The notes under the pieces are model-generated. The model ran no database searches, had not been told where the DNA came from, and saw only the letters and a program-made list of their open reading frames with translations. Both the position numbers and the translations under genes were made by a program. From Myxococcales bacterium (GTDB lineage: Bacteria; Myxococcota_A; Polyangia; Fen-1088), in NCBI GenBank assembly GCA_003136095.1, contig PNBO01000419.1, positions 8,401 through 53,981 of the forward strand: 45,581 nt of DNA. The letters are read 5' to 3'. Positions 3,395-43,286 of this stretch are shown piece by piece. How positions within the stretch are numbered: position 1 is the first letter of the stretch; every line of letters starts with the position of its first letter.

Positions 3395-4773
<1,379 letters not shown>

Positions 4774-12416: not shown

Positions 12417-13337
12417 CTAGACGGTCGCTGCCGGTGTGGCGCCCGTCGCAACAGGTGCGGATTCGCACGCGTGGACGATTGTCTCGTACCGAATGAGTGC
12501 CGGGTCGGAAGGGCGCACCATGCGCAGGAACGAGACGTAGCCTCGAAGCTCCTGCGACCGGGCACCAAACCGGTCCGGGTGAAGGTCGGCTTGGTGAAAT
12601 ATTGCGCGCCACCGATGGCGTTGGCTCTTCGGTACATTTGGAAACTCGTTCACCACTAGCCCCGTGACCATTTGCGACTGACCACGTCGATGAACCCGGG
12701 TCTTCTTGGGGTTCCCCTCGAATCCCTCGGACGCAATGATCGCTTCGATTGTGCGCTGCGCACCTCCGAGTGCGCCGTTTCCGGACACTGTAATGTCGTC
12801 ACAATAGCGCGTGTATGACCAGCCGCGGCGCTGACACAACCCACTAAGCCGGCCATCGAGACGGCGTGCAATGATATTGGCGAGTTCCGGTGATGTAGGA
12901 GCCCCCTGCGGCAACTCTCCACCCCTCGTCGTCAGCTGCGTGAATGCGAAAGCCACTTCATCCGCGAAGCCCAACCCCCTAAACAGCCCGAAAACCCGAC
13001 GACTAGTTATTGAAGGAAAGTACTCTCGAATGTCGGCGTTGAACACGAAATCGCGCCCTATGTGTGGTGCGGCATTCTTGACAATTGAGCATCCTGGCCG
13101 GAATGCGGTCGCCGCGACATGCAAGGGAACGGCTCGAAGGATGTATTTCACGATCCAGCGCTGGAGGCCCTTCAACTCGGCACTGGGCGCGTTGATAGTC
13201 CGATAGCCATGTCCGGATGGCTTCCCGATGCGGAATGTCTTGTACAGCCGGTGCGCCTTGAACACATACCGCGTGAGGGCGTACTTGGGAATGCCGATCG
13301 CCTTCGCCAGGCCGTCAATTGTGGCTATCGTGGTCAT
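12417..13337 (-). CDS. ret: Retron reverse transcriptase
   Basis: A reverse transcriptase of 306 residues. The finger/palm motifs run in order: PGCSIVKNAAPHIG (79-94), which has the retron-specific NAxxH at 88-92, first catalytic Asp102 in NADIREYFPS, LPQGAPTSP (142-150), the active site YCDD at 178-181, and the retron thumb motif VTG at 224-226. It reverse-transcribes part of the msr-msd RNA encoded just upstream (13357-13543), priming from an internal 2'-OH to give branched msDNA. No group II intron maturase or DGR features are seen. The ATG is 19 nt after the a2 repeat. Base composition looks less GC-rich than flanking genes, in line with horizontal transfer. Confidence 0.95.
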   Translation of the reverse strand: MTTIATIDGLAKAIGIPKYALTRYVFKAHRLYKTFRIGKPSGHGYRTINAPSAELKGLQRWIVKYILRAVPLHVAATAFRPGCSIVKNAAPHIGRDFVFNADIREYFPSITSRRVFGLFRGLGFADEVAFAFTQLTTRGGELPQGAPTSPELANIIARRLDGRLSGLCQRRGWSYTRYCDDITVSGNGALGGAQRTIEAIIASEGFEGNPKKTRVHRRGQSQMVTGLVVNEFPNVPKSQRHRWRAIFHQADLHPDRFGARSQELRGYVSFLRMVRPSDPALIRYETIVHACESAPVATGATPAATV

Positions 13338-13356
13338 TGGCGAGTCGCAAGATGGC

Positions 13357-13373
13357 GGTGAGGGATTGCTCTG
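13357..13373. repeat. Retron a2 repeat (inverted partner of a1)
   Basis: This 17-nt segment is the exact reverse complement of 13527-13543. In the RNA it pairs with a1 to bring the branch G next to the 3' end of msd, where reverse transcription begins. The pairing stops at the first mismatch on both sides, which sets the RNA ends used here. Confidence 0.92.
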
Positions 13374-13526
13374 CTACCAGGGTGCCCGCGACGCGGGGAC
13401 CCGCAGACACGGGCGCGTCCATCACGAGCGAGCGCGGAATCGCGCTCGGGAGCGATGAGAGCGCCCGGCAGTGGGGACATCGATAACGGATTGGCGATCG
13501 CACCAATCACACCTGCTTTCGCAGTC

Positions 13527-13543
13527 CAGAGCAATCCCTCACC
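13527..13543. repeat. Retron a1 repeat (inverted partner of a2)
   Basis: This is the 5' arm of the a1/a2 duplex of the retron RNA. It includes the effector stop codon (13539-13541), so the ncRNA and the effector mRNA share sequence and probably one transcript. Confidence 0.92.
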
Positions 13544-14393
13544 CCCCAGAAAACAACTGCCCGACCGCGGTTGAGCGCCGCGGGTTCAACGTTTGATTCA
13601 ACCACCTTGCACGCAATCGGACGATATCGCTGACGCAACCTGAAGGCAACCCAGATTGATCAAGGGGGCGAGTCGGCGTGTATCGTTTCAATTCCAAGCG
13701 AAGCAGGGCAGACGCAAATAGCGTCTTGAGCAGCGCTCGGACTGTGTGTTCGGGAAACGAAAGAACATCGCGAAGTTCTGCGAGAGTTACCGCGCCGCAC
13801 ACGTGGCACGTAGCAAGTACCACGAACTCGTCGAAGGTCGTCGTGCCGCCGCGCTGGCCGCTCGGAAGACGCGTGTGCCACCGTTCGGCGACTGCGTGAT
13901 CGACGTGACGAAGCGCTGTGGGCTCGAGCAGCCTAGCGGCGGGTTCATACCAGACCAGCCGTTCGCGGCCGATGAGTGCGAGAGGGCCCAGGTTGAGAAA
14001 GCTCTTCTCCGCGGCATATTGCACATCGTTGAACACCAAGAGCTTGGGGTTGATCTCAGGGTCCATCGCGAAAGCAGTGACCTCGGAGATAGTACCGACG
14101 GAATCAAGAAACACTACTATGAGTTCGGAGTTCTTCGCCTCGCGGACTTCTACCCGAAGGTGGTTCACGTCCGTACGCACGTCCCGAGGGAGATCGATGT
14201 CCTCACCGAGGAATGCGGTGCAACCCATTCGCGTCTCCAGAATGCGCTTCAACTGGTGCCGAGCGTCGAAGCGGGGGTCGGTAACTTCGCCACCGCAAAG
14301 GAACACACGAAACTGAGGACCGCGGTGGAGGTGTCGGAACAAGTCGCTGAGGAGGAATGGCAGCCTCTCAAGGACGGCGTCAATCTCGTACAT
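13539..14393 (-). CDS. Retron effector: N-deoxyribosyltransferase-like N-glycosidase with winged helix
   Basis: A protein of 284 residues. The N-terminal Rossmann-like domain starts with VFLCGGEV (30-37), continues with FLGEDIDLP, and has the glycosidase motif DSVGTISEV (97-105) with a candidate catalytic Glu104, as in nucleoside deoxyribosyltransferases. The C-terminal part (about 185-240, ATCHVCGAVTLAELRDVL) looks like a winged helix. This domain pair matches the effector of type II retrons such as Eco1, where a glycosidase toxin is held in an RT-msDNA complex and released during phage attack. The ATG at 14393 has a GGGAGAA ribosome site; the longer upstream frame lacks one. Confidence 0.88.
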   Translation of the reverse strand: MYEIDAVLERLPFLLSDLFRHLHRGPQFRVFLCGGEVTDPRFDARHQLKRILETRMGCTAFLGEDIDLPRDVRTDVNHLRVEVREAKNSELIVVFLDSVGTISEVTAFAMDPEINPKLLVFNDVQYAAEKSFLNLGPLALIGRERLVWYEPAARLLEPTALRHVDHAVAERWHTRLPSGQRGGTTTFDEFVVLATCHVCGAVTLAELRDVLSFPEHTVRALLKTLFASALLRLELKRYTPTRPLDQSGLPSGCVSDIVRLRARWLNQTLNPRRSTAVGQLFSGG

Positions 14394-26788: not shown

Positions 26789-27145
26789 GGGGCTTGCTCC
26801 TGTTGTGGCCCGGCCCTGCGCCGGGTAACACTGGGGTTGATTTGCAAGGCCCAGGCCAGGCTCGCGGCCTCGAGAAACCCAGGATCTGCCTCGACTTCCG
26901 GTCCTTGGATGCCGCGCGCAAAACCAGGTTGCAGAATAGTCTCCACCGAAGCTGCCGACTATTCTGCGGCCACCGCACCGGTCATGCTCGTCGGCGAGTC
27001 CGCTGGCGATCCGAGCCTTGCCAACGCCACGTCAAGACCGGATGACAGCCTCGCCCCGCACGGCTATCTTTCCTCGCGACGACCGTGGCTGCCAGCCGCG
27101 GAACCCGCCGGAGGATCTTCGTCCGACTCTGCTGCGGGCTTTGGC
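26789..27145. other. 357-nt intergenic region upstream of the metal efflux operon
   Basis: It lies between the stop of the PEGA pseudokinase and the start of the YHS gene, both on the minus strand. It must hold the efflux operon promoter. Apart from the 11-bp inverted repeat at 26931-26967 I see no ORF with coding character and no CueR-type operator. Confidence 0.5.
26931..26967. repeat. Perfect 11-bp inverted repeat, possible operator or terminator
   Basis: GCAGAATAGTC and GACTATTCTGC are separated by 15 nt, about 143 nt upstream of the YHS start. No T-run follows on either strand, so an intrinsic terminator is not supported. A binding site for a dimeric regulator of the metal operon is possible but unproven. 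Confidence 0.55.
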
Positions 27146-28828
27146 CTACTTGCTGAACTTCGCCAGCGCGGGTCGGGCGCCAGCTTCGACGGTGATGTCC
27201 ACGGAAACCACACGCCGCGCACCGGGCAGGTAGATGCCAACCATGTGCTTGCCGACCGTCGTCGGGACCCGCAGCGACGGGCAGAGCAGGCCGGTTTCCT
27301 CGTCGTCGATGAGGATGGGGAACTTCCCCACGGTCTGGCACTCGACGCGCACGAAGCCGCTGCCGCGCCCTGGTGGTGGCACCGGAACCAGGTTGCGCCG
27401 GATGATGGCGCCGCGGCTGGTGTCCACGATGTCGCGGAACATGCGGTGGCTGGGCAAGGTGAGGACGACGCGGTGGCTGCCAGGCCCGACCACGATGTCG
27501 GCAAAGGTCGTGCCCCTCACGACGCCGTCGACCCAGACGGTCGCGCCCGGTGGCACGGTTTCGGCGACGAGGTGGCCGGCGAGGTGTGACAACACTCTCT
27601 CGCGGGACGGCGCCTCCTCATCGCTCTCGGCGACGCTCGCCTCCCGGTCGGCTTGCACGGCGGTGGGCCGCCTGTCTCCGGTGGGTGGCTCGACCCGCGC
27701 CGGATTCGCGCGGCCGGGGCGCGAGGCGCCCGACAGAGCGAGCGACACGATGGCCGCGGCCACGCCCACCCCGGCAAAGGCCGCCGCGGCCCACACGCGC
27801 CAGCGGTTGCGCCGTCTGCCCAGACCGGGAATCGCTCTCGAGAGTGCATCTTCCGCCAGGCTGTCCGCGGGCAGCGGCACCTTGATGGGCGGCGACGCCC
27901 CGGTTTCCCGTGCCCGCGCGGCCGCCTCCCGGGCTTCCTTCTCCGCCTTGCGCAGGCCCTCCGCGATCCGGCGCTGCCGCTTGCGCACGCTATCGACGCC
28001 GCCCGATAGCCGGTCCACCAGCGCGGCCGCGGACTCGGGGCGATCCTCGGGCCGCGGCGTCAGCAGGCTGCGCAGAGCCGCGTTCAACTTCGGTGGAACC
28101 GCGGGAAGCTCGGGCGGGGACACCGGCCCGCCCACCGGGCCAGCAAGAGTCGCCTGACCGGGCGACTGCCCGGCCACGAGAAAATAGAGAAGCGCGCCCA
28201 GCGAATAGAGATCCGCGGCCACCGCCAGCCGTCCGCCCGGGACGGCTGCGCCGACGAGCTCGGGCGCGACGAACCACCAGCGCTCCGCGGGCTGTTCGGT
28301 CAACGAGCGACTCGCGGCCGCGATGCCGGCGTCGAGCAATACGACCTCGCCCTCGTCGGTGACGATAACGTTCTGCGGGGCGAGGCCAAGGTGGGTCAGG
28401 CTGGGCTTGGCCGCATGCCCCATCTGCAAGAGGCGCGCGATCTCCGCCCCGATCAGGCCGGCGAGCCCCGGGTCCGCGCCGGTCCGCCCCTCGGCCCGGG
28501 ACATGTCGAGAAGCCTCGCCAGATCGTGGCCGGCCACGTACTCGGTCACGATGAAGGTGGCCGAGGGATCGGCGGAAACGTCGAGGACTTTCCCGAACCC
28601 TGGGCGATGGAAGTCGGCCAGCCGCCGGCCGGCGGCGACGAACCTTTGCGCGACCTCGGCGAACGCCGCCTCGGGGATGCGATCTTGCCGCAGCCGCTTC
28701 AAGGCAAAGAGCTGGCCCGAGGCCTTGGCGGCATCTTCGGGCAGGCGGGCCAGGTACGTCTCGGTGACGCCGCCCGGACCGAGCAGGCCCTCGACTACGT
28801 ACCCGCCGATTTGCAGCGACGGAAGCAC
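27146..28828 (-). CDS. Ser/Thr pseudokinase with PEGA-type C terminus
   Basis: A protein of 560 residues from GTG 28828 (the longer frame runs into the PLD gene). The kinase fold is clear: glycine loop GPGGVTETYLA, LFALKRL with the ATP lysine, and VAADLYSLGALLYFLVAG. The catalytic HRD reads HLG (HLGLAPQN) and DFG reads DAG, so phosphotransfer is unlikely. A single membrane segment (WAAAAFAGVGVAAAIVSLAL) leads to PEGA-like beta repeats (VPPGATVWVDGVVRGTTF, VGPGSHRVVLTLPSHRMF) outside. It is a paralogue of the broken gene at 33643-35480. Confidence 0.85.
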   Translation of the reverse strand: MLPSLQIGGYVVEGLLGPGGVTETYLARLPEDAAKASGQLFALKRLRQDRIPEAAFAEVAQRFVAAGRRLADFHRPGFGKVLDVSADPSATFIVTEYVAGHDLARLLDMSRAEGRTGADPGLAGLIGAEIARLLQMGHAAKPSLTHLGLAPQNVIVTDEGEVVLLDAGIAAASRSLTEQPAERWWFVAPELVGAAVPGGRLAVAADLYSLGALLYFLVAGQSPGQATLAGPVGGPVSPPELPAVPPKLNAALRSLLTPRPEDRPESAAALVDRLSGGVDSVRKRQRRIAEGLRKAEKEAREAAARARETGASPPIKVPLPADSLAEDALSRAIPGLGRRRNRWRVWAAAAFAGVGVAAAIVSLALSGASRPGRANPARVEPPTGDRRPTAVQADREASVAESDEEAPSRERVLSHLAGHLVAETVPPGATVWVDGVVRGTTFADIVVGPGSHRVVLTLPSHRMFRDIVDTSRGAIIRRNLVPVPPPGRGSGFVRVECQTVGKFPILIDDEETGLLCPSLRVPTTVGKHMVGIYLPGARRVVSVDITVEAGARPALAKFSK

Positions 28829-28877
28829 GGCTACCGATTGTAGACCACCCGCGACAGCGGCGCGCGACTCCCCGCGG

Positions 28878-29474
28878 CTACTCGTCGAGTGGTTTCGGAC
28901 AGAAATCGCGCAGCTTGCACGCGGAGCACTCCGCCCCGCGCCAGATGCGGTCAAAATACGCCTGCACCTCGTCGAGCAGCAGGTCGTCGCGGCTGGTCAA
29001 GCCGAGCTCGAAATTGCGCCGGCCCTCGCCCTTGGCGCCCAAGCCCGCGCCGGTCCAGTTGGCGCTGCCCAGGTAGAGCATGCCGCCGTCGACGATCACG
29101 GCCTTGAAGTGGACGCGCGGGCAGAGCCGCATCTCGAAAGCGCCACGCGGCGGCCGGCGCAGGGCAGGCAGGCGGCGCAACTCCGCGCGAAACGGCCGCG
29201 ACGGCGGCGAGGCGTGCAGGATGCGGATCTCGACACCACGCCCGACCCGCTCCGCGAACGTCTCCAGGACCGAACGAAACTCACTCCGGCCAGCGGCGGT
29301 GCGCCGACGTCCGGGCCGCGCGCGCTCGTCCTCGACCATCAACTCTTTCAGATTCGCGGTGGCAATCCACAGACTGCGCTCGGCATTCATCGCGGCCTTC
29401 ACCACGGCCTCGTAGTGGCCCTTGCCCCCGATCAGGGCGAGCGTCACCGGGCGGTTCTGCCGGACGAAATCCAT
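28878..29474 (-). CDS. Phospholipase D-like protein with C-terminal cysteine cluster
   Basis: A protein of 198 residues with one PLD half-site: His122, Lys124 and Asp129 in VHFKAVIVDGG, then GSANW (136-140). Because PLD enzymes need two HKD motifs, it would work as a homodimer, like the nuclease Nuc. The tail has CSACKLRDFC (Cys183, Cys186, Cys192), which with Cys118 could bind zinc or an Fe-S cluster. There is no signal peptide, so a cytoplasmic nuclease is as likely as a lipase. It starts 3 nt after the stop of the Cys-rich lipoprotein gene. Confidence 0.8.
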   Translation of the reverse strand: MDFVRQNRPVTLALIGGKGHYEAVVKAAMNAERSLWIATANLKELMVEDERARPGRRRTAAGRSEFRSVLETFAERVGRGVEIRILHASPPSRPFRAELRRLPALRRPPRGAFEMRLCPRVHFKAVIVDGGMLYLGSANWTGAGLGAKGEGRRNFELGLTSRDDLLLDEVQAYFDRIWRGAECSACKLRDFCPKPLDE

Positions 29475-29477
29475 CGG

Positions 29478-30614
29478 TCAGTCACGCGCGCCAGCGTCGG
29501 GGGAAGTCGCGCTCGCGACCGTGCACGGAGGATTCACCGTCCCCTGGCAGGTCCCACTGGTGCAGGTGCCCACAAAGCAGGCCATTGAGGCATAGCCACC
29601 GTCGGGCACCGTGCACGCTTCCCCCATGCCTGGCAGGGTCACGCAGGTTCCATCGCGACAATCGGCGTAGAAGACACAACCCGAGCTGATTCTCGAGATC
29701 CCACCGTCCGGGACGCTGCACGCGGCGCCAACCGCCAGGCGGGGGCGGCAGGTGCCGCTCGTGGCGTCACAGAAGCTGTTGACGTTTTCGCAATCGGCGC
29801 CATTGGGGTTGCACGCCTGTCCATCCTTGACGTAGGGCACGCAGGTTCCCGAGCCCGAGCTGTCGCAGGCCAAGCCGGACTGGCATTGGTTGTTGTACGT
29901 GCAGGGCTGCCCCTGCGCCCCCTGCGGCTGGCAGGTGCTCTGGGAGGAGGTCGCGTAGTCGGTGCCGCAGTAGTCGCCGGCCGCGCAGTCGGTCGAACTG
30001 GTGCAGGCCGCGCCGGCGGCCAGGGGTTGCCCGCAGGTGCCGAGACAACAGCTCGTACTGCAAGAAGGCTGATGACAGGAACCGCCCACGCACTCCGCGT
30101 CCGTGACGCAGTTCCCGCCAGTGGCTACGGTCCCCTTGATCACGCCCACGCAATTGGCGTCGGCCTGGCTCCCCTGCGAAGTCGCGCCCTGCGTGCAAGC
30201 GGTGGCGGCGATCCCATCGAAGCAAACGGGGGCCTTGCTCGCGTCGTAGATGATCTTGCCGCTGTCGATGTCCTGGACGAGAGCGGTCAGATCCATCGCG
30301 CCCGAGTCGAAGTAGTCGGCCTTGCACAGGGCCGTGCTGGGGCTGACGCCGCACCTCACGAAGAACTGGCAGAAGGCGCTGACGTACCGGTTCGCGAAAT
30401 CCGCGGAGCCGCCGGTGCCGCCGAGAATCGCGGCATCGCTCCGCCCACCGCTGCCGCCCGCGCCACCCGCCCCGCCGCCACCGGCACCGCCGGTGTCCAC
30501 GCCGCCCGCACCACCACCCCCGCTGCCACCATCGACGGCTTGCTTGGCGCCACCGCAAGCGAAAGAAATGCCGGCCAGACCAACTACGGCGAAATTCAAA
30601 GCGAAGTTACGCAT
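29478..30614 (-). CDS. Gly-rich, Cys-rich (Dickkopf-like) lipoprotein
   Basis: A protein of 378 residues with a signal peptide ending in ISFAC, a long Gly/Ala low-complexity stretch and then many repeated cysteine motifs (GGNCVTDAECVGGSCHQPSC, AAGAACTSSTDCAAGDYC, GQPCTYNNQCQSGLACD). These resemble the Dickkopf/EGF-like modules common in myxobacterial surface lipoproteins. The periplasm or cell surface is likely; function unknown. The ATG at 30614 is chosen for the signal peptide. Confidence 0.82.
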   Translation of the reverse strand: MRNFALNFAVVGLAGISFACGGAKQAVDGGSGGGGAGGVDTGGAGGGGAGGAGGSGGRSDAAILGGTGGSADFANRYVSAFCQFFVRCGVSPSTALCKADYFDSGAMDLTALVQDIDSGKIIYDASKAPVCFDGIAATACTQGATSQGSQADANCVGVIKGTVATGGNCVTDAECVGGSCHQPSCSTSCCLGTCGQPLAAGAACTSSTDCAAGDYCGTDYATSSQSTCQPQGAQGQPCTYNNQCQSGLACDSSGSGTCVPYVKDGQACNPNGADCENVNSFCDATSGTCRPRLAVGAACSVPDGGISRISSGCVFYADCRDGTCVTLPGMGEACTVPDGGYASMACFVGTCTSGTCQGTVNPPCTVASATSPDAGARD

Positions 30615-33507
30615 GCGTTCTATTCTAGCACCTGCTGGCGCGGCGTTTTCCCCGCCGGTTCCGCGCCGGTTGCTCGGCTTCGTTGTAGTATCCCCCCCGG
30701 CAAGCTTGCGTATCCAGGATCCTCCACCTTCCAAATCCAGCTATCCTCGCCGGTTCGGACCTCGTTTCACGCTGCTCAAAGAGCTCGGCAAGGGGGGCAT
30801 GGGACACGTCTTCATGGCGCTGACCGGACAGGCCGGCGTCGAACGGGTCTGTGCGCTCAAAATCCTCAAGGAAGTCCGCGCCGGCCGCGACGCGGAAGAG
30901 CTGACACAGCGTTTTCTCGACGAGGCCAAGGTGGTGACCAAGCTCTCCCACGAGAACCTGGTCTACGTCTTCGACTTTGGCATCAACGATCGCCGCGGCT
31001 ATCTGGCCATGGAATACGTCCAGGGCAAGTCCGTCACCGAGACCTGGAACCGCTGCGCCGCCCGGCGCGACGGCTTCCCCATCGGCCTTACGCTCTACTA
31101 CATCTCCGAGCTGGTTTCGGCCCTCTGGTACGCGGCCAACGTCGAGGGTTTGGGCCTCGTCCACCGCGACATCTCGCCCTCGAACGTGATGCTGACCTAC
31201 ACCGGCGGCGTCAAGCTCATCGACTTCGGGCTGGCCAAATGGAACGCCAAGGTGGTGCAGACCGCGGCCGGCGTGCAGTGGGGCAAGACCAGCTACATGT
31301 CGCCCGAGCAGTACATCGGCAAGCCGGTGGATCACCGCAGCGATCTCTTCTCCGCCGGCGTGATCCTGTGGGAGTTGCTCACCGGCCGGCAGATGTTCCC
31401 GCCCACCGATCCGCGCCTGCCGAGCGCGACGGTGCCGCCACCCTCGAAGTACACGCGCGAGGTAACGCCCGAGCTCGATCGCGTGGTGGCGCGGGCCCTG
31501 GCCATCGAGCCCGCGGAACGCTTCCAGACCGGCGAGGAGATGTGCACGGCGCTGCTCGCCGCAATGCCCAAGGACCCCGGCGGCAAACTGCAGGCCGCCA
31601 AGTTCATCGGCCGGCTCTTCGAGGCCGAGATCCGCGACGAAACCGCCGAGCAGCGCGAGTTGGTCGAGCGCGCCAGCCGCATGGACGACCCCCTGCCAGC
31701 GGGGACGCTCGACCCACCCATCGTCGGCGAAGCCATCGGCGACGGCGAAACCACGCCGGACCCTGATCCCGACGGCCTGCTCGGCAAGACCTTGAGCGAC
31801 CGCTACTACATTCGCCGCCTGGTCGGTGAAGGCGCCATGGGCCGCGTCTACGAGGGCCACCACACCGGCATCGGCAAGCGCGTGGCCATCAAGATCGCCC
31901 ACCGGGTCGAGCGGCGGAAGACGGAGGTGGCGAAGCGTTTCCAGCGCGAGGCGCTGGCCCCGGCGCAAATCGGCCATCCCAACGTGGCCGACGTCACCGA
32001 CTGCGGCACCACGCCGGGCGGTGAGTTCTTCTTCGTGATGGAGTTCATCGACGGCGTCAGCCTCGACGCGGTCATCAAACGCGACGGCCAGCTCACCATC
32101 GAACGCGCCCTCGCCATCGCCGTGCAGATCTGCCGCGCGCTGGAGGCCGCCCACCGCGCGGGCATCATTCACCGCGACCTCAAGCCCTCGAACGTCATGC
32201 TCGTGCGCTCGCAGGACCAGGAGGAGGTGGTCAAGGTCCTCGACTTCGGCGTGGCCAAGTTCCTGCACGACACCGGCGACGGCGCCAACCTCACCCTGAC
32301 CGACGCTAGCGTGGGCACGCCGAAGTACATGGCCCCGGAACAGATCCGCGGTGGCGGCAAGGTGGACTTCCGTTCCGATCTCTACTCGCTGGGCGCCATC
32401 CTCTACACCATGCTCGCGGGCGGCCGCCTGCCCGTCGAGGGCGCGACCATCGAGGAGCTGTGGCAGCACAAGCTGACCCGCGACCCCTACCCGCTGCACG
32501 ACTACCGCTCCGATCTGCCCGCCGACCTCGAGGAATTGATCCTGAACAGCCTGGCGCGCGAACCGAGCCAGCGGCCGGCCTCGGCGAAACTCCTCAAGCA
32601 ACAGCTCATCTCTCACCTCGAATCGACGCGCGCCATGAGCGACAGCATCCTGGGCATGAAGTCGCCCTCGCAGACGGAGATCCTCGGCGAGCGCAGGCGA
32701 CGCTGGCGGGCCCGCCTAGGCATCGCGCTCGGCACGCTCACCGCGGCCGCGATTGCCGTGGCCGGAATCTACCTGGTGCGCTCGCCGTCTTCCCCGCAGG
32801 AAGAGCCGCGCCGGGCCGCCGAGCCCCCCGCACCTTCGCCCGCGCCAATGAAGTCGCCGCAGCCCTCCATCGCCGAGCCGCCATCCACGGCGCCCGCCGA
32901 ACCCAAGCCCCAACCGCTGGGCCCGGCCGCCGCGGGCACAGAGAACCTCTCCGGCAAGTCCGCATCCACGACGCCGCCCGCCGAAGAAATGGCCGGTGGT
33001 GCACAACGTCTGGCCGGCGAGACCGCGCCGGTCGGTCAAGGCAAGACGCGACGGCACGGCGCGGAGGCGACGGCCCCCTCGACCTCGGCGCGGCCGCCGG
33101 GCAAGAGCCCGTCGGAGCCGGCCGGAGCGCGAGCCGAGGCGGCGGCGGCCGAACCCGAGCCGCGCGGCTCGGGGCGCGTGCGCCCAGCCATAGCGGAGGC
33201 GGAGGCAGGCCCCGCCAGCGACGAGTCTGTCGCCGCAGCCATCGCCAAGGCCGAGGCCGCGTTCAGCGGCGGCCACATGGCGACCGCGCGCATCGCGGCC
33301 ACCCAGGCGGTTTCCGCCGCAAGTGGCTCGCCGCCCCCTCTCAAGGTGCGGGCGCACATCATCATGGGCAAGGTGGAGCTCGCCTCCGAGCGCTTCCCCG
33401 AGGCCGAGCGCGCCTTCGATCGCGCGCTGGCCATCGCCCCCGACAACCCCGTCGCGCTCAAGGGCAAGGAGCGCGCCCGCGACGCCGCTACCAAGGCGAG
33501 GCCGTAG
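30613..33507 (+). CDS. Tandem double Ser/Thr protein kinase with TM and TPR-like tail
   Basis: About 964 residues with two complete kinase domains. Kinase 1 (about 48-320) has GKGGMGHVF, CALKIL, HRDISPSN (Asp186) and DFGLA. Kinase 2 (about 398-665) has GEGAMGRVY, VAIKIA, HRDLKPSN (Asp522), DFGVAK and MAPEQ. Both look active. A membrane segment near residue 700, a Pro/Ala-rich stretch and TPR-like helices (ERFPEAERAFDRALAIAPDN) follow. The start is uncertain: the ATG at 30613 is back to back with the divergent lipoprotein start, and a TTG at 30706 would give a tighter N terminus and leave room for promoters. Confidence 0.88.
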   Translation: MRSILAPAGAAFSPPVPRRLLGFVVVSPPASLRIQDPPPSKSSYPRRFGPRFTLLKELGKGGMGHVFMALTGQAGVERVCALKILKEVRAGRDAEELTQRFLDEAKVVTKLSHENLVYVFDFGINDRRGYLAMEYVQGKSVTETWNRCAARRDGFPIGLTLYYISELVSALWYAANVEGLGLVHRDISPSNVMLTYTGGVKLIDFGLAKWNAKVVQTAAGVQWGKTSYMSPEQYIGKPVDHRSDLFSAGVILWELLTGRQMFPPTDPRLPSATVPPPSKYTREVTPELDRVVARALAIEPAERFQTGEEMCTALLAAMPKDPGGKLQAAKFIGRLFEAEIRDETAEQRELVERASRMDDPLPAGTLDPPIVGEAIGDGETTPDPDPDGLLGKTLSDRYYIRRLVGEGAMGRVYEGHHTGIGKRVAIKIAHRVERRKTEVAKRFQREALAPAQIGHPNVADVTDCGTTPGGEFFFVMEFIDGVSLDAVIKRDGQLTIERALAIAVQICRALEAAHRAGIIHRDLKPSNVMLVRSQDQEEVVKVLDFGVAKFLHDTGDGANLTLTDASVGTPKYMAPEQIRGGGKVDFRSDLYSLGAILYTMLAGGRLPVEGATIEELWQHKLTRDPYPLHDYRSDLPADLEELILNSLAREPSQRPASAKLLKQQLISHLESTRAMSDSILGMKSPSQTEILGERRRRWRARLGIALGTLTAAAIAVAGIYLVRSPSSPQEEPRRAAEPPAPSPAPMKSPQPSIAEPPSTAPAEPKPQPLGPAAAGTENLSGKSASTTPPAEEMAGGAQRLAGETAPVGQGKTRRHGAEATAPSTSARPPGKSPSEPAGARAEAAAAEPEPRGSGRVRPAIAEAEAGPASDESVAAAIAKAEAAFSGGHMATARIAATQAVSAASGSPPPLKVRAHIIMGKVELASERFPEAERAFDRALAIAPDNPVALKGKERARDAATKARP

Positions 33508-33517
33508 GAAGAGATCT

Positions 33518-33631
33518 CACCACAGAGGCACAGAGAGCGCAGAGCCCGAAGAAGAATTGGGTTTCTCCGGATCCGGATCCGAACCATCCCTTCCTCGTCC
33601 GGCCTTTGTGCTCTCTGCGCCCTCTGTGGTG
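33518..33631. repeat. Imperfect inverted repeat between convergent genes (CACCACAGAGG-type element)
   Basis: CACCACAGAGGCACAGAGAG begins at 33518, and its imperfect complement ends at 33631 (CTCTGCGCCCTCTGTGGTG). The arms span 27 nt each, with a bulge and a few mismatches, around 60 nt that contain a tandem GGATCC repeat. It lies exactly between the convergent double kinase and pseudokinase genes, so it may act as a two-way terminator. Similar CACCACAGAGG sequences are, from memory, scattered in intergenic regions of many environmental bacteria. Confidence 0.65.
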
Positions 33632-33642
33632 AAAGTCCGGAA

Positions 33643-35480
33643 TCAGTAACTGAACTGCACGCGGTGCGGACGGTCGGCGAGAACCTCGCGGTCCTGGGTC
33701 CAGATGCGGTTCTCGGGAATGACGAAGACACCCACCATGTGCCGGCCGGGGTCGAGACGCACGCCCGCGATCGGACAGAGCGCACCGATTTCCTTCCCGT
33801 CGACGACCACCGGGTACTTGCCCTCGGTGGTGCAGGCGACGTTGATTCCTACGCTCCCCGTGAGTGGGAAGACCGCGGGCACCATCTCACGCTCGAAAAC
33901 CGCGCCATTCGTGGTGTCGACCACGTCGCGCAACATGCGATAGCCAGGGGACGTGATCACCAGGCGGTGTGCGCGGGGCTCGGTCACGATCGTCGACGGC
34001 GAGGTTCCCACCTCCTGGCCATCGATCCACGCCACCGCCCCCGCGGGATTGACCTTGAGCACGAGGTGGCCCTTGGGGAGCATCGGGGCCTGGACGAGCT
34101 TGGGTCTCGTGGCATCGAGTCTGGCCCGCTCCGCGGCGTGGGCGGCGTCCCGCAACATGCTCTGCTCGCGCGCCGCGCGCCAGCTCTGGAGGAAGAAGAA
34201 GCCCTCTACCCCGCCGCCGACAACCACCACCGCGATGGGCACCCAGGCGTAGCGGAACAGCTTGCGCGCGAAGGCGCTCTTCGTCCAGGCGAGCATGCGG
34301 ACACCGCGCCGCCGCCGGCGCTTCACCTTCCCGTCGGCGGTGACCTCGATTTCATCTTCCTCGTCCTCGTCATCGTAGACCGCGCCCACGTCGGGGTCGT
34401 CCGCGGCGATGTGCTCCGACGCATGATCGGCCACGGCCGCCACCTCGCCTTGGGGGACCAGGACAAAAGGCTGGATCTCGGATTCGCCGTCGCCATCCTC
34501 CGATGCAGGCGCCGGCGGACTTTCTTCTTCTTCAGGCTGTCCGCCAACCTCCTTCGGACGGGCAGGGGCGAGTTGGGCGCTCGCCGGCGCAGGCGGCCCC
34601 GCCGGCGTCGGCCGCGCCGCCACCGGCGCGAACGCGCCAACCTGTGCGCTGGCGGTGAGCAACGCCACCGAGATCTGACGCACGACCTCGAGCGCGGATC
34701 TCGGCCGAGCCTCGGGCGCGTACGCGAGCAGGCGAGCCAGGCCGGTGGCCAGGGCGGGGTGGAGGCCCGCGAGCTCGGGGTTGCCGCCGGCGATGCGCGC
34801 CTCCAGTTCCTTGGGCATCTCGCCCACGAAGGGCAACCGCCCGAAGTACAGGAAGTACATCAGTACCCCGAGCGTGAAGAGGTCGGAGGCGGAGCCCGCG
34901 GCCTCGCCGCGCAACTGCTCGGGGGCCGCGAAACGCCAGCTCTCGCTCGGCCAGCCCGCCTTCGAATGCAACGCATCCGCGAACCCGCAATCGAGCAGGA
35001 GAAGGTCGCCGCTCGGCCGCACCAGGACGTTGCCGGGCGACAGGCCGCCGTGCACGCGCAAACCATCGGGTTGCCCATGCAGGGGCACCAGGCGCTCGGC
35101 GAGTTTTCGCCCGATGGTGCCGACTAGCCGCGCGTCCATGTGGCTGCCTTCCGGCACCGCCTGCATGCGAAGCTGGCGCAGGTTCACGCCTTGCTCGAAC
35201 TTGAAGGCGGCATAGGTCGCCTCCGGCCGGTCCCCGATCTCGAAAACGCCGGCCATGCCAGGCATCGGCCGGCGCTGCAACATCCGCGCGGCGGCGATGA
35301 AGCGCAACTCGACCTCCGCCCGATGTTCGCCCTGGCGCAGCACCTTGAGCGCAGAATGCCTGGGTCCTTCTCGCCGGGCAAGACCTCCACCAGCCGTGCC
35401 CGATAGGTGTCGGTCACGTTTCCTCGCCCCAGCAACACCTCAGGCTGGTAGCGCCCAAGGCGCGCAAAATTTGCGCTCAT
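33643..35480 (-). pseudogene. Frameshifted Ser/Thr pseudokinase with PEGA-type C terminus
   Basis: The N-terminal piece starts at ATG 35480 (RYQPEVLLGRGNVTDTYRAR, the glycine-loop strand) and loses its frame near 35353-35357. The expected continuation ALKVLRQGEHRAEVELRF is in the next frame and runs to 33643. One lost base explains it. Together the pieces make about 612 residues, like the paralogue at 27146-28828. Catalytic motifs are degenerate (HGGLSPGN for HRD, DCGFAD for DFG). An acidic stretch, a membrane segment (WVPIAVVVVGGG) and PEGA repeats (KVNPAGAVAWIDGQEVGTSP) follow. The cause may be a true mutation, an assembly error or programmed frameshifting. Confidence 0.82.
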
Positions 35481-35483
35481 GGC

Positions 35484-36026
35484 TCAGAAGGCCTCACCCC
35501 ACATTACATCGACCGACCTCGGCATTTCTTGCGCTCCCCTCCTATCCTTTTGCGTCATGGGCTGGCGGCGGCTACGCTGGCGCGCGACCTCGAACATGGC
35601 CAGCCCCGCGGTGGTCGACAGATTGATGGAACGCATGTTCGGCTCGACCATGGGAATGCGCAAGGTCCGGGAGGCGTTGCGGGCCAGAATCTCCGCGGAC
35701 AGCCCGACGCTTTCCCGCCCGAAGACGAGCGCCACGCGTTCGGGATACGCTACGTCCCAGAACGAGCGCGAGCCGTGCGACGAGAAGAAGAACGGCTCGC
35801 CCAGCTCGGGCAACTTCTCTTCGATGGCAGTCCAGCTCGGCCAGATCCGCAGGCGCACGCGCGGCCAGTAGTCGAGCCCGGCGCGGTGGAGATACCGATC
35901 GTCGAGCGAGAAACCGAGCGGCTCGACGAGGTGCAGGTCGGCGCCCGTGGCCAGGGTGGTGCGGCCAATGTTGCCCGTGTTCCAGTGGATCTCGGGCTCG
36001 ACCAGGATGACGTGCAGGGAAGACAC
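35484..36026 (-). CDS. trmL: tRNA (cytidine/uridine-34 2'-O)-methyltransferase TrmL (SpoU/SPOUT class)
   Basis: About 180 residues. ILVEPEIHWNTGNIGRT, LVEPLGFSLDDRYLHRAGLD, ALVFGRESVGLS and RSINLSTTAGLAMFEVAR are the SPOUT trefoil-knot motifs in the TrmL arrangement. It should methylate the wobble ribose of tRNA-Leu species. The best start is GTG 36026 (VSSLHVILVEPE) or TTG 36038; the very long upstream frame is antisense to the pseudouridine synthase. Beyond the catalytic domain there is an extra tail of about 30 residues. It ends 3 nt before the frameshifted kinase gene. Confidence 0.87.
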   Translation of the reverse strand: MSSLHVILVEPEIHWNTGNIGRTTLATGADLHLVEPLGFSLDDRYLHRAGLDYWPRVRLRIWPSWTAIEEKLPELGEPFFFSSHGSRSFWDVAYPERVALVFGRESVGLSAEILARNASRTLRIPMVEPNMRSINLSTTAGLAMFEVARQRSRRQPMTQKDRRGAQEMPRSVDVMWGEAF

Positions 36027-36077
36027 GACTTGGCCCAAGGAAGACCATAGTATTGCCGTGGGGACAACTCCATTCCC

Positions 36078-36791
36078 ATGCCCAAACTGGAAACGCTCCT
36101 GGCCCGCAATCTCGGCTGCTCGCGCGGCGAGGCGCGTGGCCTGCTCGCCCGCGATGCGAGCGGGCTGCCGCATGAGGTTCTCCCCGGGGCGCTGCCGCTC
36201 TGCCTGACCATCGCGGGCAGGAGGATCAATATCCACGGCTCCTTCCACTTGCTGCTGCACAAGCCGGCTGGCTGCGTGACCGCGCTGTCCGACAGCCGGC
36301 ACCTGGCCGCGGCCAGCTACGTGGCAGGCGCGCCGCTCGCCGCCGAATTGCGGCCCATCGGCCGCCTCGACCTCGACACCACCGGACTTCTGCTGTGGAC
36401 CACCGACGGCGCCTGGCTGCACCGGCTCACCCACCCGCGCGGGGCGCTGCCGCGCGGCTACCACGCGGTTCTGGCGCGGCCGTACCAGCCACTGCCGGCG
36501 GACCTCGTTCTCCGCGACGGCCACCGGCCGCGCGTGGTCGACCTGCGTCCGCTGGCGCCGCACGAAGCCCATCCCGCCTTGCCACGTCCCGAGGGCGCGG
36601 CCGTTTTCGCCGCCATCACCATCGCCGGTGGCGCCTACCACGAGGTTCGCCGCATCTTCGCCGCCCTCGGTAGCCACGTGCTCGCCTTGTGCCGGGTGTC
36701 CTTCGGCGCGCTCACGTTGCCCACGGATCTCGCCGCGGGAAGCTGGCGCCCGATCACCAAGGCCGAGGTCGAGCCCCCTACCGCGCGCTGA
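36078..36791 (+). CDS. RsuA/RluB-family pseudouridine synthase
   Basis: A protein of 237 residues. RPIGRLDLDTTGLLLWTTDG with Asp98 is the RsuA/RluB/RluE/RluF signature, and LLHKPAG, ALPRGYHAV and EVRRIFAALGSHVLAL complete the core. A short and weakly conserved S4-like region is at the N terminus. It isomerises uridine in rRNA; the 16S U516 (RsuA) target is the most likely by length but is not proven. It is transcribed away from trmL, with 51 nt between the start codons. Confidence 0.88.
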   Translation: MPKLETLLARNLGCSRGEARGLLARDASGLPHEVLPGALPLCLTIAGRRINIHGSFHLLLHKPAGCVTALSDSRHLAAASYVAGAPLAAELRPIGRLDLDTTGLLLWTTDGAWLHRLTHPRGALPRGYHAVLARPYQPLPADLVLRDGHRPRVVDLRPLAPHEAHPALPRPEGAAVFAAITIAGGAYHEVRRIFAALGSHVLALCRVSFGALTLPTDLAAGSWRPITKAEVEPPTAR

Positions 36792-36794
36792 CGC

Positions 36795-36925
36795 CGTTAC
36801 TTGAAGTTCTGCGCGGCCCAGACCGCGCCGCCCGACGTCGTGTAGAAGCCGCAAGCCACGCCGTTCTTGTAGCCGGTTCCGGTCATGTTGATGTAGTGGC
36901 CGTGATCGGTAAAGCACTGTGGTTT
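36795..36925 (-). pseudogene. C-terminal remnant of a CAP/SCP-domain secreted protein
   Basis: On the minus strand an open stretch reads CFTDHGHYINMTGTGYKNGV followed by ACGFYTTSGGAVWAAQNFK and a TAA at 36797-36795. This is the end of a bacterial CAP (SCP/PR-1) domain. An in-frame TAG at 36928-36926 and the YfiR-like gene upstream show that the rest is missing. It is too short to be a gene and is best seen as debris of a deletion or rearrangement. Confidence 0.65.
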
Positions 36926-36930
36926 CTACG

Positions 36931-37515
36931 TCACCTGACCACGGTCGCCAGGCGGAGCAGCTCGGGCCCGAAGGCGACCCCCTCCTCGCGGTTCGCTTCC
37001 AGGTTGACGATGATGGTGTTCCGGCCGTCGAGATCGAACACGCCCAGCGACAGCCCGAGCTTGAGATGGGCCTCCTGGCTCGCCATGGTCAGCGCCTTGC
37101 GCGCGCGCGCCACCGCCTTGATGTCGGCCAGGTTGGCATCGAGCCCGCTGCACACGTAGAGGGTGTCGATCCCGCCCTCCCGCACCGCCTTGTCGAGGCC
37201 ATCGCGTCCGACGAAGGAGAGGCGGCTGATCTGCACGGGAAGCCCCAGCAGCGTCGCCGTCTCGAGGGGCGTGAACGCCTTCACGAGCAGGTCGGCCATC
37301 TTCTCGGATTCCTTATCGCCCTTCTTGGCGAGGATCGCGATGTTGACGGCCGCTCCGGCGCGTTCCTTGAGGTTCCCATCGTACGCGATGACTCGCGCGA
37401 GAAAGATCGCTTGCTTGCCCGGCGGGAGCTCCGCCGCCCGGGCGGGCCGGCCGGACAGAAAACCCACCGCCAGCATGCTGGCCCACAGGATCAGACGCAA
37501 ACGCGATCTAGTCAT
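36931..37515 (-). CDS. YfiR-like (DUF4154) periplasmic protein
   Basis: A protein of 194 residues with a signal peptide (LRLILWASMLAVGFLSGRPARA). The body matches the YfiR/DUF4154 pattern: KQAIFLARVIAYDGNLKERA, VNIAILAKKGDKES, GIDTLYVCSGLD, GVFDLDGRNTIIVNLEANRE. In Pseudomonas YfiR represses a membrane diguanylate cyclase, but no GGDEF gene is next to this one. ATG 37515 is chosen for the signal peptide; the start at 37581 would bury it. Confidence 0.8.
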   Translation of the reverse strand: MTRSRLRLILWASMLAVGFLSGRPARAAELPPGKQAIFLARVIAYDGNLKERAGAAVNIAILAKKGDKESEKMADLLVKAFTPLETATLLGLPVQISRLSFVGRDGLDKAVREGGIDTLYVCSGLDANLADIKAVARARKALTMASQEAHLKLGLSLGVFDLDGRNTIIVNLEANREEGVAFGPELLRLATVVR

Positions 37516-37723
37516 GGCGGAGAGGGAGAACCATGGACGAACCGCCCGCCTAGCATCCTCGACAATCACGGCGGCCGCCAAAAACTATCGATTTCGCCAT
37601 CCCGGACACTGCGCCACGTCACTCGTTGAACGACCACTCTCTGCGTTCAAGCTTACAAGGAACCCGTGACGAGAAACAAGTACCTTCCCGCAATCAGCGG
37701 AACCAGGCAAGGCCTGCTCGGGG

Positions 37724-38881
37724 CTAGCCAACCGGGTGCAGGCCGGTGCGATCGATGCCGTGCAGGTAGTACTGCGAATCGGCGAGAAAGCTGGTGAACA
37801 TGCCGATGTAGAGCACGAGCAACCGGATGAAGAGCGGCTGGTCTTCATACACGGACTCGATCTGTTTCTTGCGAATCTTGTCGTCGGGGTCGGCAAAGTG
37901 CTCGAGAAAACTTCCGTCGAGCAGACCTCCCTTCTCCTTGCTGTGAATGGCCGCCATGCCCCCGGCGGCGCAGTAGTCCATCATCTCGCGCAAGAGAGCG
38001 CGCCGCTCCTGCCCGCCCAACGCTGGCGACGAGAGCAGGGCCGCCACCGCCCATTGCGCCTGTTCGCTGCTGCTGGCGGCGAGGGCGCGAAAAAGGCGGG
38101 TCGTGGTTTCGTCCAGCCGGTCGAGGCGCTGCTCGCGCAGCATGCTCATGAGCACGACGTTCTTGAAGAGCTGGGAGACCAGGAGCACGCAGGCCTCGAC
38201 GTCGGGCACCACCGCGTCAACGTTGGGCGCCGGCCGGTAGCCGGGCAGGAAGAGCATGCCGAACGCCAGCTCGAAAAAGTCGTCGTGCTCGGTCGGGGTC
38301 CGCTGCACGGCGATGTCCATGGTGTTGTCCAGCCGGTCGGCCAACTTGCAGCGCAGGAGATCCGGCATGGTACGCACCTTGGACAGCACGACGCCGAGAT
38401 AGTCATAGTAGTTCTGCGTCGACTGCCGCCGGAGCAAGGCGATACGCTCGCCCAGGAACCAGCGATGGTTGGAGTCGATCTTTTCGAGCACGTGCGCGAA
38501 CTCCGCCTGCAGGCGATCCCACTCGGCGTCCCCCAGTTCCTCGCGGGTCAGATCCTCCTCCTTGTCGTGCAAGAAGGCCCCGAGCAAATCGAGGGTCGTC
38601 GGCGCCGGCATCACGCGTGCGAGCATGGCGGCGACGCGCAGACAGTGGAGCACGGCGGCGGGCCCGTTCTTGCGCCGCCGGTCGCCGTAGGCCTGTTGCA
38701 GGTAGTTGAGAGCTTCGAGCAGCGGCGCCTGATCCGCGACCTTGGCCGGCCCCAGAATCACGCGCAAAAGTGTGCGCAGGTCGATCTTGCGCGCCGAGAG
38801 GTGCCAGTTGATGGTGGCCGACAGGGTGAGGTGCCCCTCCACCGAGAGCCCCGCAAGCCGCTGTTCTTGGACTGAGAGCAT
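37724..38881 (-). CDS. SpoT-like HD-domain protein (possible alarmone hydrolase)
   Basis: A protein of 385 residues. The first half carries the RelA/SpoT hydrolase pattern: AAVLHCLRVAAML (His79), AFLHDKEED (His105, Asp106, Glu109, Asp110; HDxxED) and CKLADRLDNTMD. No synthetase, TGS or ACT domain follows. The C-terminal half is helical and unfamiliar, and ends with a hydrophobic stretch (PLFIRLLVLYIGMFTSFLA). A Mn-dependent phosphohydrolase acting on (p)ppGpp or another nucleotide is the best guess. GTG 38908 is an alternative start. Confidence 0.75.
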   Translation of the reverse strand: MLSVQEQRLAGLSVEGHLTLSATINWHLSARKIDLRTLLRVILGPAKVADQAPLLEALNYLQQAYGDRRRKNGPAAVLHCLRVAAMLARVMPAPTTLDLLGAFLHDKEEDLTREELGDAEWDRLQAEFAHVLEKIDSNHRWFLGERIALLRRQSTQNYYDYLGVVLSKVRTMPDLLRCKLADRLDNTMDIAVQRTPTEHDDFFELAFGMLFLPGYRPAPNVDAVVPDVEACVLLVSQLFKNVVLMSMLREQRLDRLDETTTRLFRALAASSSEQAQWAVAALLSSPALGGQERRALLREMMDYCAAGGMAAIHSKEKGGLLDGSFLEHFADPDDKIRKKQIESVYEDQPLFIRLLVLYIGMFTSFLADSQYYLHGIDRTGLHPVG

Positions 38882-38974
38882 GAAGTCACACCGCCGCGCC
38901 GCGCACACCGCGTCCGACGCAACGACATCATTCTACATGACCGGCCGCGATTGCCCAGGTTGGGCTTGAGCGGC

Positions 38975-40192
38975 TCACGGCTTCTTGGCGCGCAGGAGGT
39001 CACCGAGGGTGCCGAAGTGGGCCGGGCCGGCGGCTGCGCGGGCCGCGTCCAGATCCTCCTGCGAAACGACATCGCCGCGCTCGCCAGCGCCGAGCGAGAT
39101 GCGGCGCCGCTCGTGATCCAAGGCCAGGACGGTCACCACCAGGCTGTCCCCGGGCTTGCACATCTCACGCGCGTGGCGCACCTGCTTGCCCGCGGCCAGC
39201 TCCGAGGTGTGGACCAAACCCTCCACGCCAGGCGCCAACTCGACGAAGGCACCGAAGGACTCGACCCGGACCACCTTGCCCGTGACCTGCGTTCCCGAGG
39301 GAAAGCGCGCGCGCACGTCTTCCCAGGGATCGCGTTCCAGCGACTTGAGCGAGAGCGAAATCCGCTCGGGCCGCTTGGCGTCGTCGGTCTTCTCGATCTT
39401 GAGCACCTGCACATCGAGCCGCTGCCCGACCGCGAGAATTTCGCTCGGCCGCAACCCGCGAGAGAAGCCGAGCTCGGAAGCATGCAACATCCCCTCGATC
39501 CCGCCGAGGTCGACGAACGCGCCGAAATCCTTGATGCTCACCACCACGCCGGGCAGGACCGCGCCCGGCACCAGCTTGGCGCGCACCTTCTCGGCGCGCC
39601 CGCGCGCCTCTTCCTCGAGCAGCGCCCGCCGCGAAACCACCAAATTCACGCCGCGGCGGTCGACGTCGTAGCGCGTGACGCGGAACTGGAACTTGCGGCC
39701 CACGTACTCGCCGGCATCGGCCACGTGCCGCGCCTCGAGCTGCGAGATGGGACAGAAGCCGCGCACCCCGGCGATCGTGACTTCGACCCCGCCCTTGTTG
39801 ACGGCCGTCACGGTGCCTTCCACGGCCAGGCCGAGTTGCGCCGCCTGGGCTAGCTCCGCCTTGGCCTCCGGCCCCCGTGCCATCGCGCGCCGCAGGACCA
39901 CGCAGCCTTGCTTGCCCATGGTCTCGACCACGCGCGCGTCGATTTCGTCGCCCACCTTCACGCTCAGGTTCCCGTCGCCGTCACGCAACTGGTCGAGCTC
40001 GATCATGCCTTCGATGGCGCCGCCGGCGATCTCCACCACCGCCGATTCCTGCCCGATCATGGCCACCCGCCCGCGCACCGTGTCCCCCACCTGCGCCTCG
40101 GCACGCGCTCCGCGGCTCCGGCGGCCTTCGAACTCCGCCAGCATGGAGGCGAAGTCCTCCGGTTTACCGCTCGCCTGGTCGTTGTCGCTCAT
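38975..40192 (-). CDS. Multi-S1-domain RNA-binding protein
   Basis: A protein of 405 residues with four S1 (OB-fold) repeats, at about 33-110, 120-195, 205-285 and 295-375. Signature segments are GRVAMIGQESAVVEIAGGAI, GTVTAVNKGGVEVTIAGVRG, VVSIKDFGAFVDLGGIEGML and VVRVESFGAFVELAPGVEGL. It is shorter than six-domain ribosomal protein S1, so it is either a lineage-specific S1 paralogue or a general RNA-binding factor. The ATG at 40192 is preferred to two upstream starts in the same frame. Confidence 0.88.
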   Translation of the reverse strand: MSDNDQASGKPEDFASMLAEFEGRRSRGARAEAQVGDTVRGRVAMIGQESAVVEIAGGAIEGMIELDQLRDGDGNLSVKVGDEIDARVVETMGKQGCVVLRRAMARGPEAKAELAQAAQLGLAVEGTVTAVNKGGVEVTIAGVRGFCPISQLEARHVADAGEYVGRKFQFRVTRYDVDRRGVNLVVSRRALLEEEARGRAEKVRAKLVPGAVLPGVVVSIKDFGAFVDLGGIEGMLHASELGFSRGLRPSEILAVGQRLDVQVLKIEKTDDAKRPERISLSLKSLERDPWEDVRARFPSGTQVTGKVVRVESFGAFVELAPGVEGLVHTSELAAGKQVRHAREMCKPGDSLVVTVLALDHERRRISLGAGERGDVVSQEDLDAARAAAGPAHFGTLGDLLRAKKP

Positions 40193-40335
40193 GGCGGCTT
40201 TCATACCCGCTCCGCGCGCGGCTTGCACGCGCCGATTGCGCTGGAATTCGGATCCTCCCGTTCGGATTGGCGACGCCGGCTGGAAAGACGTAGTACACTA
40301 GAGGTGTCAGAGGTTCGAGCGAGGCAATTCCAGGC

Positions 40336-40620
40336 ATGGCCATGACGACGAAGAAGACACTACGCGTGCCCGTGGCCGCTGATGGCGTTCCCCTCGTCGT
40401 GCAATCGCAGCGACCGGAAAGGACGCGCGAAATCGCCAACGACGAGGCCATGGGCCCGGAGAACGAACCTCAGGCCGCGGCGGCGCCGGGCGCGCCGCGG
40501 GAGATCCTCGCGGACGACGTCACCGTGCCGGTGCACTCGTCGATCGAAAGCTCGCTCACCTTCGAAGTACTCCGCCGCCAATCAACCAACAACGACGACG
40601 AGGGCGACAAGAAACGGTAG
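40336..40620 (+). CDS. Hypothetical small protein
   Basis: A protein of 94 residues with no signal peptide or membrane segment. It is rich in Ala, Pro, Glu and Asp, and the C terminus is charged (NNDDEGDKKR). No family recognised. It lies 18 nt upstream of the PadR-like gene and may be co-transcribed with it. A second ATG two codons in could be the real start. Confidence 0.55.
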   Translation: MAMTTKKTLRVPVAADGVPLVVQSQRPERTREIANDEAMGPENEPQAAAAPGAPREILADDVTVPVHSSIESSLTFEVLRRQSTNNDDEGDKKR

Positions 40621-40638
40621 TCCGGGACCGCGTCCACC

Positions 40639-40938
40639 ATGAGCCAGGCCGAATCCGTCACTCCGCAAGCCGCCTTGCTGCGCGTGCTTATCGCCGGCGA
40701 AAGCGACGGCCCGGAGATCATGCGCAAGATCAAGGACTGGACCGAGGGCCACATCGACCTCGACCAACCGGCGTTCACCGCCACGGTGAGCGAGCTGGAA
40801 AGCTCGGGGCTGGTCGAGCGCCACCGGGGCACTCTCGACAAGCGCACGGGCGAGGCGCACGTGACGTTCGCGCTCACGACGGCGGGGCATGCATCGGCGG
40901 TCGAGATCCTGGCCGCCAGCCTAACGCGAAAAGCTTGA
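40639..40938 (+). CDS. PadR-like winged-helix protein
   Basis: A protein of 99 residues. ALLRVLIAGESDGPEIMRKI, AFTATVSELESSGLVERHRG and VTFALTTAGHASAVEIL follow the PadR winged-helix order (helix, recognition helix, wing, LTxxG). It lacks the C-terminal dimer helices of long PadR proteins. The last 65 nt overlap, tail to tail, the end of the YfhO-like gene. Confidence 0.72.
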   Translation: MSQAESVTPQAALLRVLIAGESDGPEIMRKIKDWTEGHIDLDQPAFTATVSELESSGLVERHRGTLDKRTGEAHVTFALTTAGHASAVEILAASLTRKA

Positions 40939-43279: not shown

Positions 43280-43286
43280 GATCCTA

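Follow-up and report, generated by a model that had tools for sequence, protein, structure and literature searches.

The window, by which we mean the whole 45,581-nt stretch of DNA analysed here, carries on its minus strand (12417-14393) a complete and probably functional bacterial system against viruses, a retron with the layout of Eco1. An effector gene is followed by a noncoding RNA (ncRNA) and a reverse transcriptase (RT) gene (Table 1), and the stop codon of the effector falls within the a1 arm of the ncRNA. The observed grounds are the presence of the three parts, homology to Eco1, conserved catalytic residues, covariation in the RNA and co-conservation in a second phylum. From Eco1 we infer msDNA synthesis, complex formation, enzymatic activity and defence of the host. 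As an explanation of the whole, a type II-A-like (Eco1-like) retron gained by horizontal transfer, whose effector would be restrained by RT-msDNA until phage infection, appears very likely to us. As far as sequence comparison can tell, the Myxococcales retron is a divergent addition to the Eco1-type kind and no new kind.

The initial annotation had described a complete retron with three parts on one strand: an N-deoxyribosyltransferase (NDT)-like/winged-helix effector, an RNA of 187 nt with a perfect 17-bp inverted repeat at its ends, and a retron RT with NAxxH, YCDD and VTG motifs. This description holds in all its parts. Both open reading frames lie exactly at the coordinates first noted, the repeat is present and the three RT motifs were found, the first of them as NAAPH.

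Table 1. Features of the Myxococcales retron, with positions in the window.
Feature	Positions	Strand	Remarks
Effector gene	13539..14393	-	284 aa, ATG at 14393; NDT-like core (about residues 28-145) and C-terminal domain
Glu104 codon	14082..14084	-	aligns with catalytic Glu106 of Eco1 effector
Retron ncRNA (msr-msd)	13357..13543	-	187 nt; from repeat, folding and homologous RNAs upstream of sister RTs
a1 arm	13527..13543	-	GGTGAGGGATTGCTCTG; a1/a2 helix with compensatory changes across relatives
Predicted priming (branching) guanosine	13526	-	first base past a1; invariant in RNA family
msr hairpin 1	13513..13524	-	CTGC-GAAA-GCAG; equivalent of Eco1 P2; CG to UA double change here
msr hairpin 2	13489..13508	-	GATTGGTG-CGAT-CGCCAATC; equivalent of Eco1 P3; 8-bp stem as in sisters and Eco1
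Predicted msd template	13374..13488	-	115 nt as upper bound for the copied stretch
Conserved UAG right before a2	13374-13376	-	predicted 5´ end of msDNA, 5´-CTACCAGGG...
a2 arm	13357..13373	-	CAGAGCAATCCCTCACC
Retron RT	12417..13337	-	306 aa, ATG at 13337; NAAPH, YCDD, VTG

The RNA element

The RNA is delimited by an inverted repeat with 20-nt arms (13354-13373 and 13527-13546, 95% match) that enclose the perfect 17-bp core, and the 187 nt are counted between the outer ends of this core. The predicted fold has an energy of -117 kcal/mol and a z-score of -6.66 against shuffled sequences, none of 200 being as good. Because Rfam scans of the RNA, both strict and permissive, returned no match, validation had to come from its relatives.

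Homologous RNAs lie upstream of the sister RTs and have in common the msr core [a1]-CUCUG-G-AC[CU]GC-loop-GC[AG]G-spacer-GGUUGAUG-loop-CGUCAACC ... UAG-[a2]. In an alignment of eight members, placed by eye with a1-msr joined to UAG-a2 and the msd omitted, 99.4% of cells pair and five pairs are altered on both sides (10 cells). Shuffles gave 2.0 such pairs and none of 500 equalled the observed five, a control that is inflated by relatedness because most of the sister RNAs come from one class; sliding of the helices abolishes the pairing. The RNA of the tripartite relative L220 does not contain the letters CUCUGG (UUUUAGAC stands there), and its a1 and priming G are set apart by an insertion, with both hairpins retained. 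The loop of hairpin 2 consists of four bases in the Myxococcales retron and L220 and of three in the sisters and Eco1. A pattern of the msr, with alternatives allowed for L118-L120, L220 and other sisters, has one match in the window, at the correct place, with 0 expected. Compensatory changes among relatives, as read from the aligned sequences, support the predicted RNA structure.

The effector and a proposed course of defence

The best PADLOC assignment of the effector is NDT_II-A (8.8e-22). Against the NCBIfam St85 effector family it scores 86.3 bits, under the curated cut-off of 100 bits, which is a threshold of the library and no biological trait; by this score the protein would be a divergent member at best. 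Its sole relatives in a PDB search are chains of the Eco1 (Ec86) effector (7v9x_C, 4.6e-10). Combined with its L220 homologue in a two-sequence profile, it matches the Eco1 effector in PDB at 4.1e-19 over residues 28-255 of 307, and hhalign pairs it with that effector at 98.9% over 245 columns spanning both halves. The C-terminal half, winged-helix and DNA-binding in the Eco1 effector, is accordingly homologous by both profile-profile comparison and PDB profile match. The AlphaFold model is weak (mean pLDDT 55, poor beyond the NDT core, C-terminus included), and the best Foldseek matches obtained with it are Eco1 effector structures. The E106A variant of the Eco1 effector, altered at the counterpart of Glu104, is an inactive mutant according to the title of PDB 8qbl. 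A viral scan with a single protein gave no match.

We suggest the following course of events. In the folded ncRNA, a1 would pair with a2 and thereby position the guanosine at 13526. RT would prime from the 2´-OH group of this guanosine and copy the msd from the conserved UAG beside a2, and the product would be a branched msDNA about 100 nt long. The NDT-like effector would be bound and kept inactive by RT, msDNA and msr, probably within a filament like that of Eco1, for which filamentous complexes and defence via NAD+ hydrolysis are described (PMC12405507). Modification or damage of the msDNA by phage might then free or activate the effector, which would hydrolyse NAD+ or related nucleosides, so that the infected cell stops (abortive infection). 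Phage DNA methyltransferases that act on msDNA have been reported as triggers for Eco1 and two II-A retrons (PMC11754653, PMC12548924). Since the msd of the Myxococcales retron contains no GATC, a Dam-type trigger, as in some II-A retrons, is not suggested; its several GCGC, CGCG and CCGG sites make a cytosine-type modification possible.

A variant of this scheme would retain the msDNA-making retron and direct the NDT effector to a non-NAD target (for example a nucleotide or nucleic-acid base), with another trigger and without a filament. The NDT fold suits several substrates, the effector is just 29% identical to that of Eco1 over 131 aa, and the lack of GATC would fit as well. Still, both halves of the Eco1 effector are covered by the homology and the catalytic Glu is kept, and we consider such a target rather unlikely.

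Relatives, tree position and host genome

The closest solved relative of the RT is the Ec86 RT (2.9e-44, 35% identity over 272 aa), followed by other retron RTs and, much further down, by group II RTs. The initial annotation had named an RT of the DGR or group II clades as a refuting outcome. A group II intron RT was rejected on profile scores (group_II_RT_mat 38.7 bits, the cut-off being 300, with retron profiles reaching 279 bits), and a DGR RT was rejected as no DGR family appeared among the profile matches. Of the PADLOC profiles, RT_XIII scores highest (279 bits) and RT_II-A comes next (256), and the St85 RT profile of NCBIfam gives 235.9 bits at a cut-off of 235.

A genome scan with an alignment of RTs as query revealed three clearly closer RTs (44-51%), all of them in MAGs (L118, L119 and L120). 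L118 and L120 are titled Melainabacteria/Obscuribacterales; L119 is titled Proteobacteria yet groups with both. The L119 MAG is probably mislabelled, its retron locus and neighbour gene matching Obscuribacterales. About ten more emerged when 194 genomes of the class to which L118 belongs were searched. One of these, L220, is a second tripartite copy with an NDT effector upstream and lies in a Melainabacteria-class genome (G602), where the effector is 38% identical to the Myxococcales one over 258 aa, C-terminus included, and the RT 51%. In the maximum-likelihood tree the Myxococcales RT pairs with that of L220 (98/88) within a Melainabacterial family (98/95), and both nest among effector-less Melainabacterial retrons. 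About ten close sisters possess RT and ncRNA, with no NDT found in the genome. The AU test rejects a single clade of all NDT-bearing RTs (p 1.5e-6), and with it their common origin; NDT effectors are therefore paired with several RT lineages. A clade of the family with the Eco1 RT is not rejected (p 0.133), although this grouping is absent from the tree itself.

These relations allow for a more general idea, which we put forward tentatively. The ncRNA-RT module might swap partners, so that together with NDT (Myxococcales, L220) it would provide Eco1-type defence, and in NDT-less Melainabacterial sisters, which have near-identical msr cores and in several lineages stand right behind Ku-LigD, msDNA would have a repair-linked or non-toxic use; NDT would then have been gained separately from that of Eco1. 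Quite improbable, in our opinion, is an effector-less domesticated retron (for housekeeping or repair, as the sisters may be) that happens to lie beside an unrelated or decaying NDT gene. It could draw on the roughly ten close sisters with RT and ncRNA and no NDT, some behind Ku-LigD, but an intact NDT gene that runs into the a1 arm and retains Glu104 is present, and L220, whose RT is the sister of this one, has an NDT with 38% identity at the corresponding place. That a classical myxobacterial (Mx162-like, long-RT) retron gained an NDT effector is hardly credible and was rejected, even though RT_XIII tops the PADLOC list for this RT, as it does for long RTs from that class (L008), and long RTs are common in the class: the 306-aa RT has no N-terminal extension (its class relatives are mostly open frames of 435-670 aa), it sits in the Melainabacterial family (98/95), and one clade of that family with long myxobacterial RTs, which stood in for Mx162 itself in the tree, fails the AU test (p 0.0156).

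Several neighbourhoods of related RTs were recorded along the way. Effector-less sisters directly behind Ku and LigD on the same strand (L120 355-4843, L251 747-5309, L252 1049-5481 and L253 742-5056) belong to Melainabacteria-class genomes and to two separate RT branches, and in them the ncRNA (CTCTGGACCGC core) is followed by RT. Effector-less sisters at L118 1489-3579 and L222 1-1095 stand behind a large ORF, about 80% identical between the two, with a weak, below-cut-off match to an nSTAND3-type NTPase; it is a possible alternative partner. Short NDT proteins (about 190-200 aa, without the C-terminal domain) adjoin retron RTs at L177 2840-4870, L152 2811-4903 and L193 2796-4858, where the RTs carry N-terminal extensions of about 185-220 aa, as if the second half of the effector had moved there; one of these three lies on a contig binned as a Nanoarchaeota archaeon. 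Among the papers searched, none deals with retrons in Melainabacteria, and the two in which both retron and LigD occur name each just once.

As for the host, its assembly comprises 6.03 Mb in 456 contigs and is 84.75% complete and 6.7% contaminated. Contamination of the MAG as the source of the contig was rejected: a SpoU gene of this contig has counterparts with 65% identity in the congener and 43-66% in family members, and the congener matches it colinearly along flanks of 17 kb and 1.8 kb, which makes the contig the host's own. In the congener (G387), the counterparts of 10-1775 and 27145-43748 are separated by only about 950 bp (L248 3400-4348), and 1776-27144, retron included, is thus a 25-kb variable segment. 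The G+C content of the retron is 57-63% as against 65-70% across most of the flanks. Together with the nesting among Melainabacterial RTs, the variable segment and the lower G+C suggest that the retron was probably acquired horizontally. Flanking direct repeats were looked for around the retron and none were found; the genes scanned included no integrase, and the ncRNA was not found in any phage record. The same segment also holds a DUF222/HNH gene, a heavy-metal RND efflux operon, a VIT/VWA protein, a two-component pair and a giant ORF, alpha-2-macroglobulin-like by our own reading.

Comparison with known retrons

The initial annotation had placed weight on the classical myxobacterial retrons Mx162, Mx65 and Sa163 having been described without this effector type. 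These likewise combine a retron RT with msr-msd in myxobacteria, but their RTs carry an N-terminal extension, and for Mx162 and Sa163 vertical inheritance has been described (PMC6868368). The Myxococcales RT is without that extension and groups elsewhere in the tree, so a difference from Mx162-type retrons is to be expected. The weight once laid on novelty is not supported, as effector type, gene order and overlap of a1 with the stop codon are all as in Eco1.

Of 379 genomes in the phylum, 2 have NDT_II-A, the Myxococcales one counted. The second NDT-type retron of the phylum (L003 71-1974, genome G005) has an RT of a quite different branch. It shares the succession of NDT effector and RT with St85-family/II-A retrons on Phaeobacter and Thioclava plasmids (L035, L036), and the RTs of all these stand on tree branches separate from that of the Myxococcales RT. 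Among the matches listed by our literature search, no paper about type II-A retrons makes mention of Myxococcota. L220 agrees with the Myxococcales retron in the three parts, their order and the msr hairpins (with compensatory changes), and differs by a longer N-terminus of the effector, the insertion after a1 and another msd.

Against the Eco1-like reading stand the effector score under the St85 cut-off, RT_XIII ahead of RT_II-A, a clade with the Eco1 RT that the tree does not return, the missing UUU loop, the lack of NDT in most close sisters and the poor effector model outside the NDT core. With the present retron, NDT-effector (Eco1-type) retrons reach into Myxococcota and Melainabacteria, with a distinct RNA that Rfam does not recognise. 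The Myxococcales retron could serve as an out-group that tells which traits of the Eco1 RNA (UUU loop, msd sequence) matter for RT recognition, effector inhibition and sensing, and the NDT-less sister clade offers a natural comparison for the role of retrons without a toxin.

With Eco1 itself (Ec86, type II-A, E. coli) the Myxococcales retron shares the order effector-ncRNA-RT and the overlap of a1 with the effector stop. In E. coli strain C (L249) the ncRNA begins at 3501, ahead of the effector end at 3514, and RT is annotated from 3752; a1 thus likewise lies over the effector stop. The Eco1 ncRNA query matched 48 E. coli genomes at at least 99%, the matches listed being at 100%. Both effectors combine NDT with a C-terminal part of DNA-binding type and a catalytic Glu. 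In Eco1 the priming G immediately follows the a1 region, and the P3 loop UUU is read by RT (PMC11754653). The Myxococcales retron has the predicted priming G directly past a1 too, as well as two msr hairpins, the second with an 8-bp stem; this stem carries the loop CGAT instead of the 3-nt UUU, hairpin 1 is short (4 bp), unlike in Eco1, and the priming context is UGGAC versus UAGC. The two retrons differ also in their proteins (RT 35% identical, effector 29% in the core only, 131 aa), and the Myxococcales msd is G+C-rich and unrelated in sequence to that of Eco1. Taken together, sequence comparison places the Myxococcales locus as a distant retron of the Eco1 kind, far from E. coli, with a distinctive RNA that it has in common with its Melainabacterial relatives.
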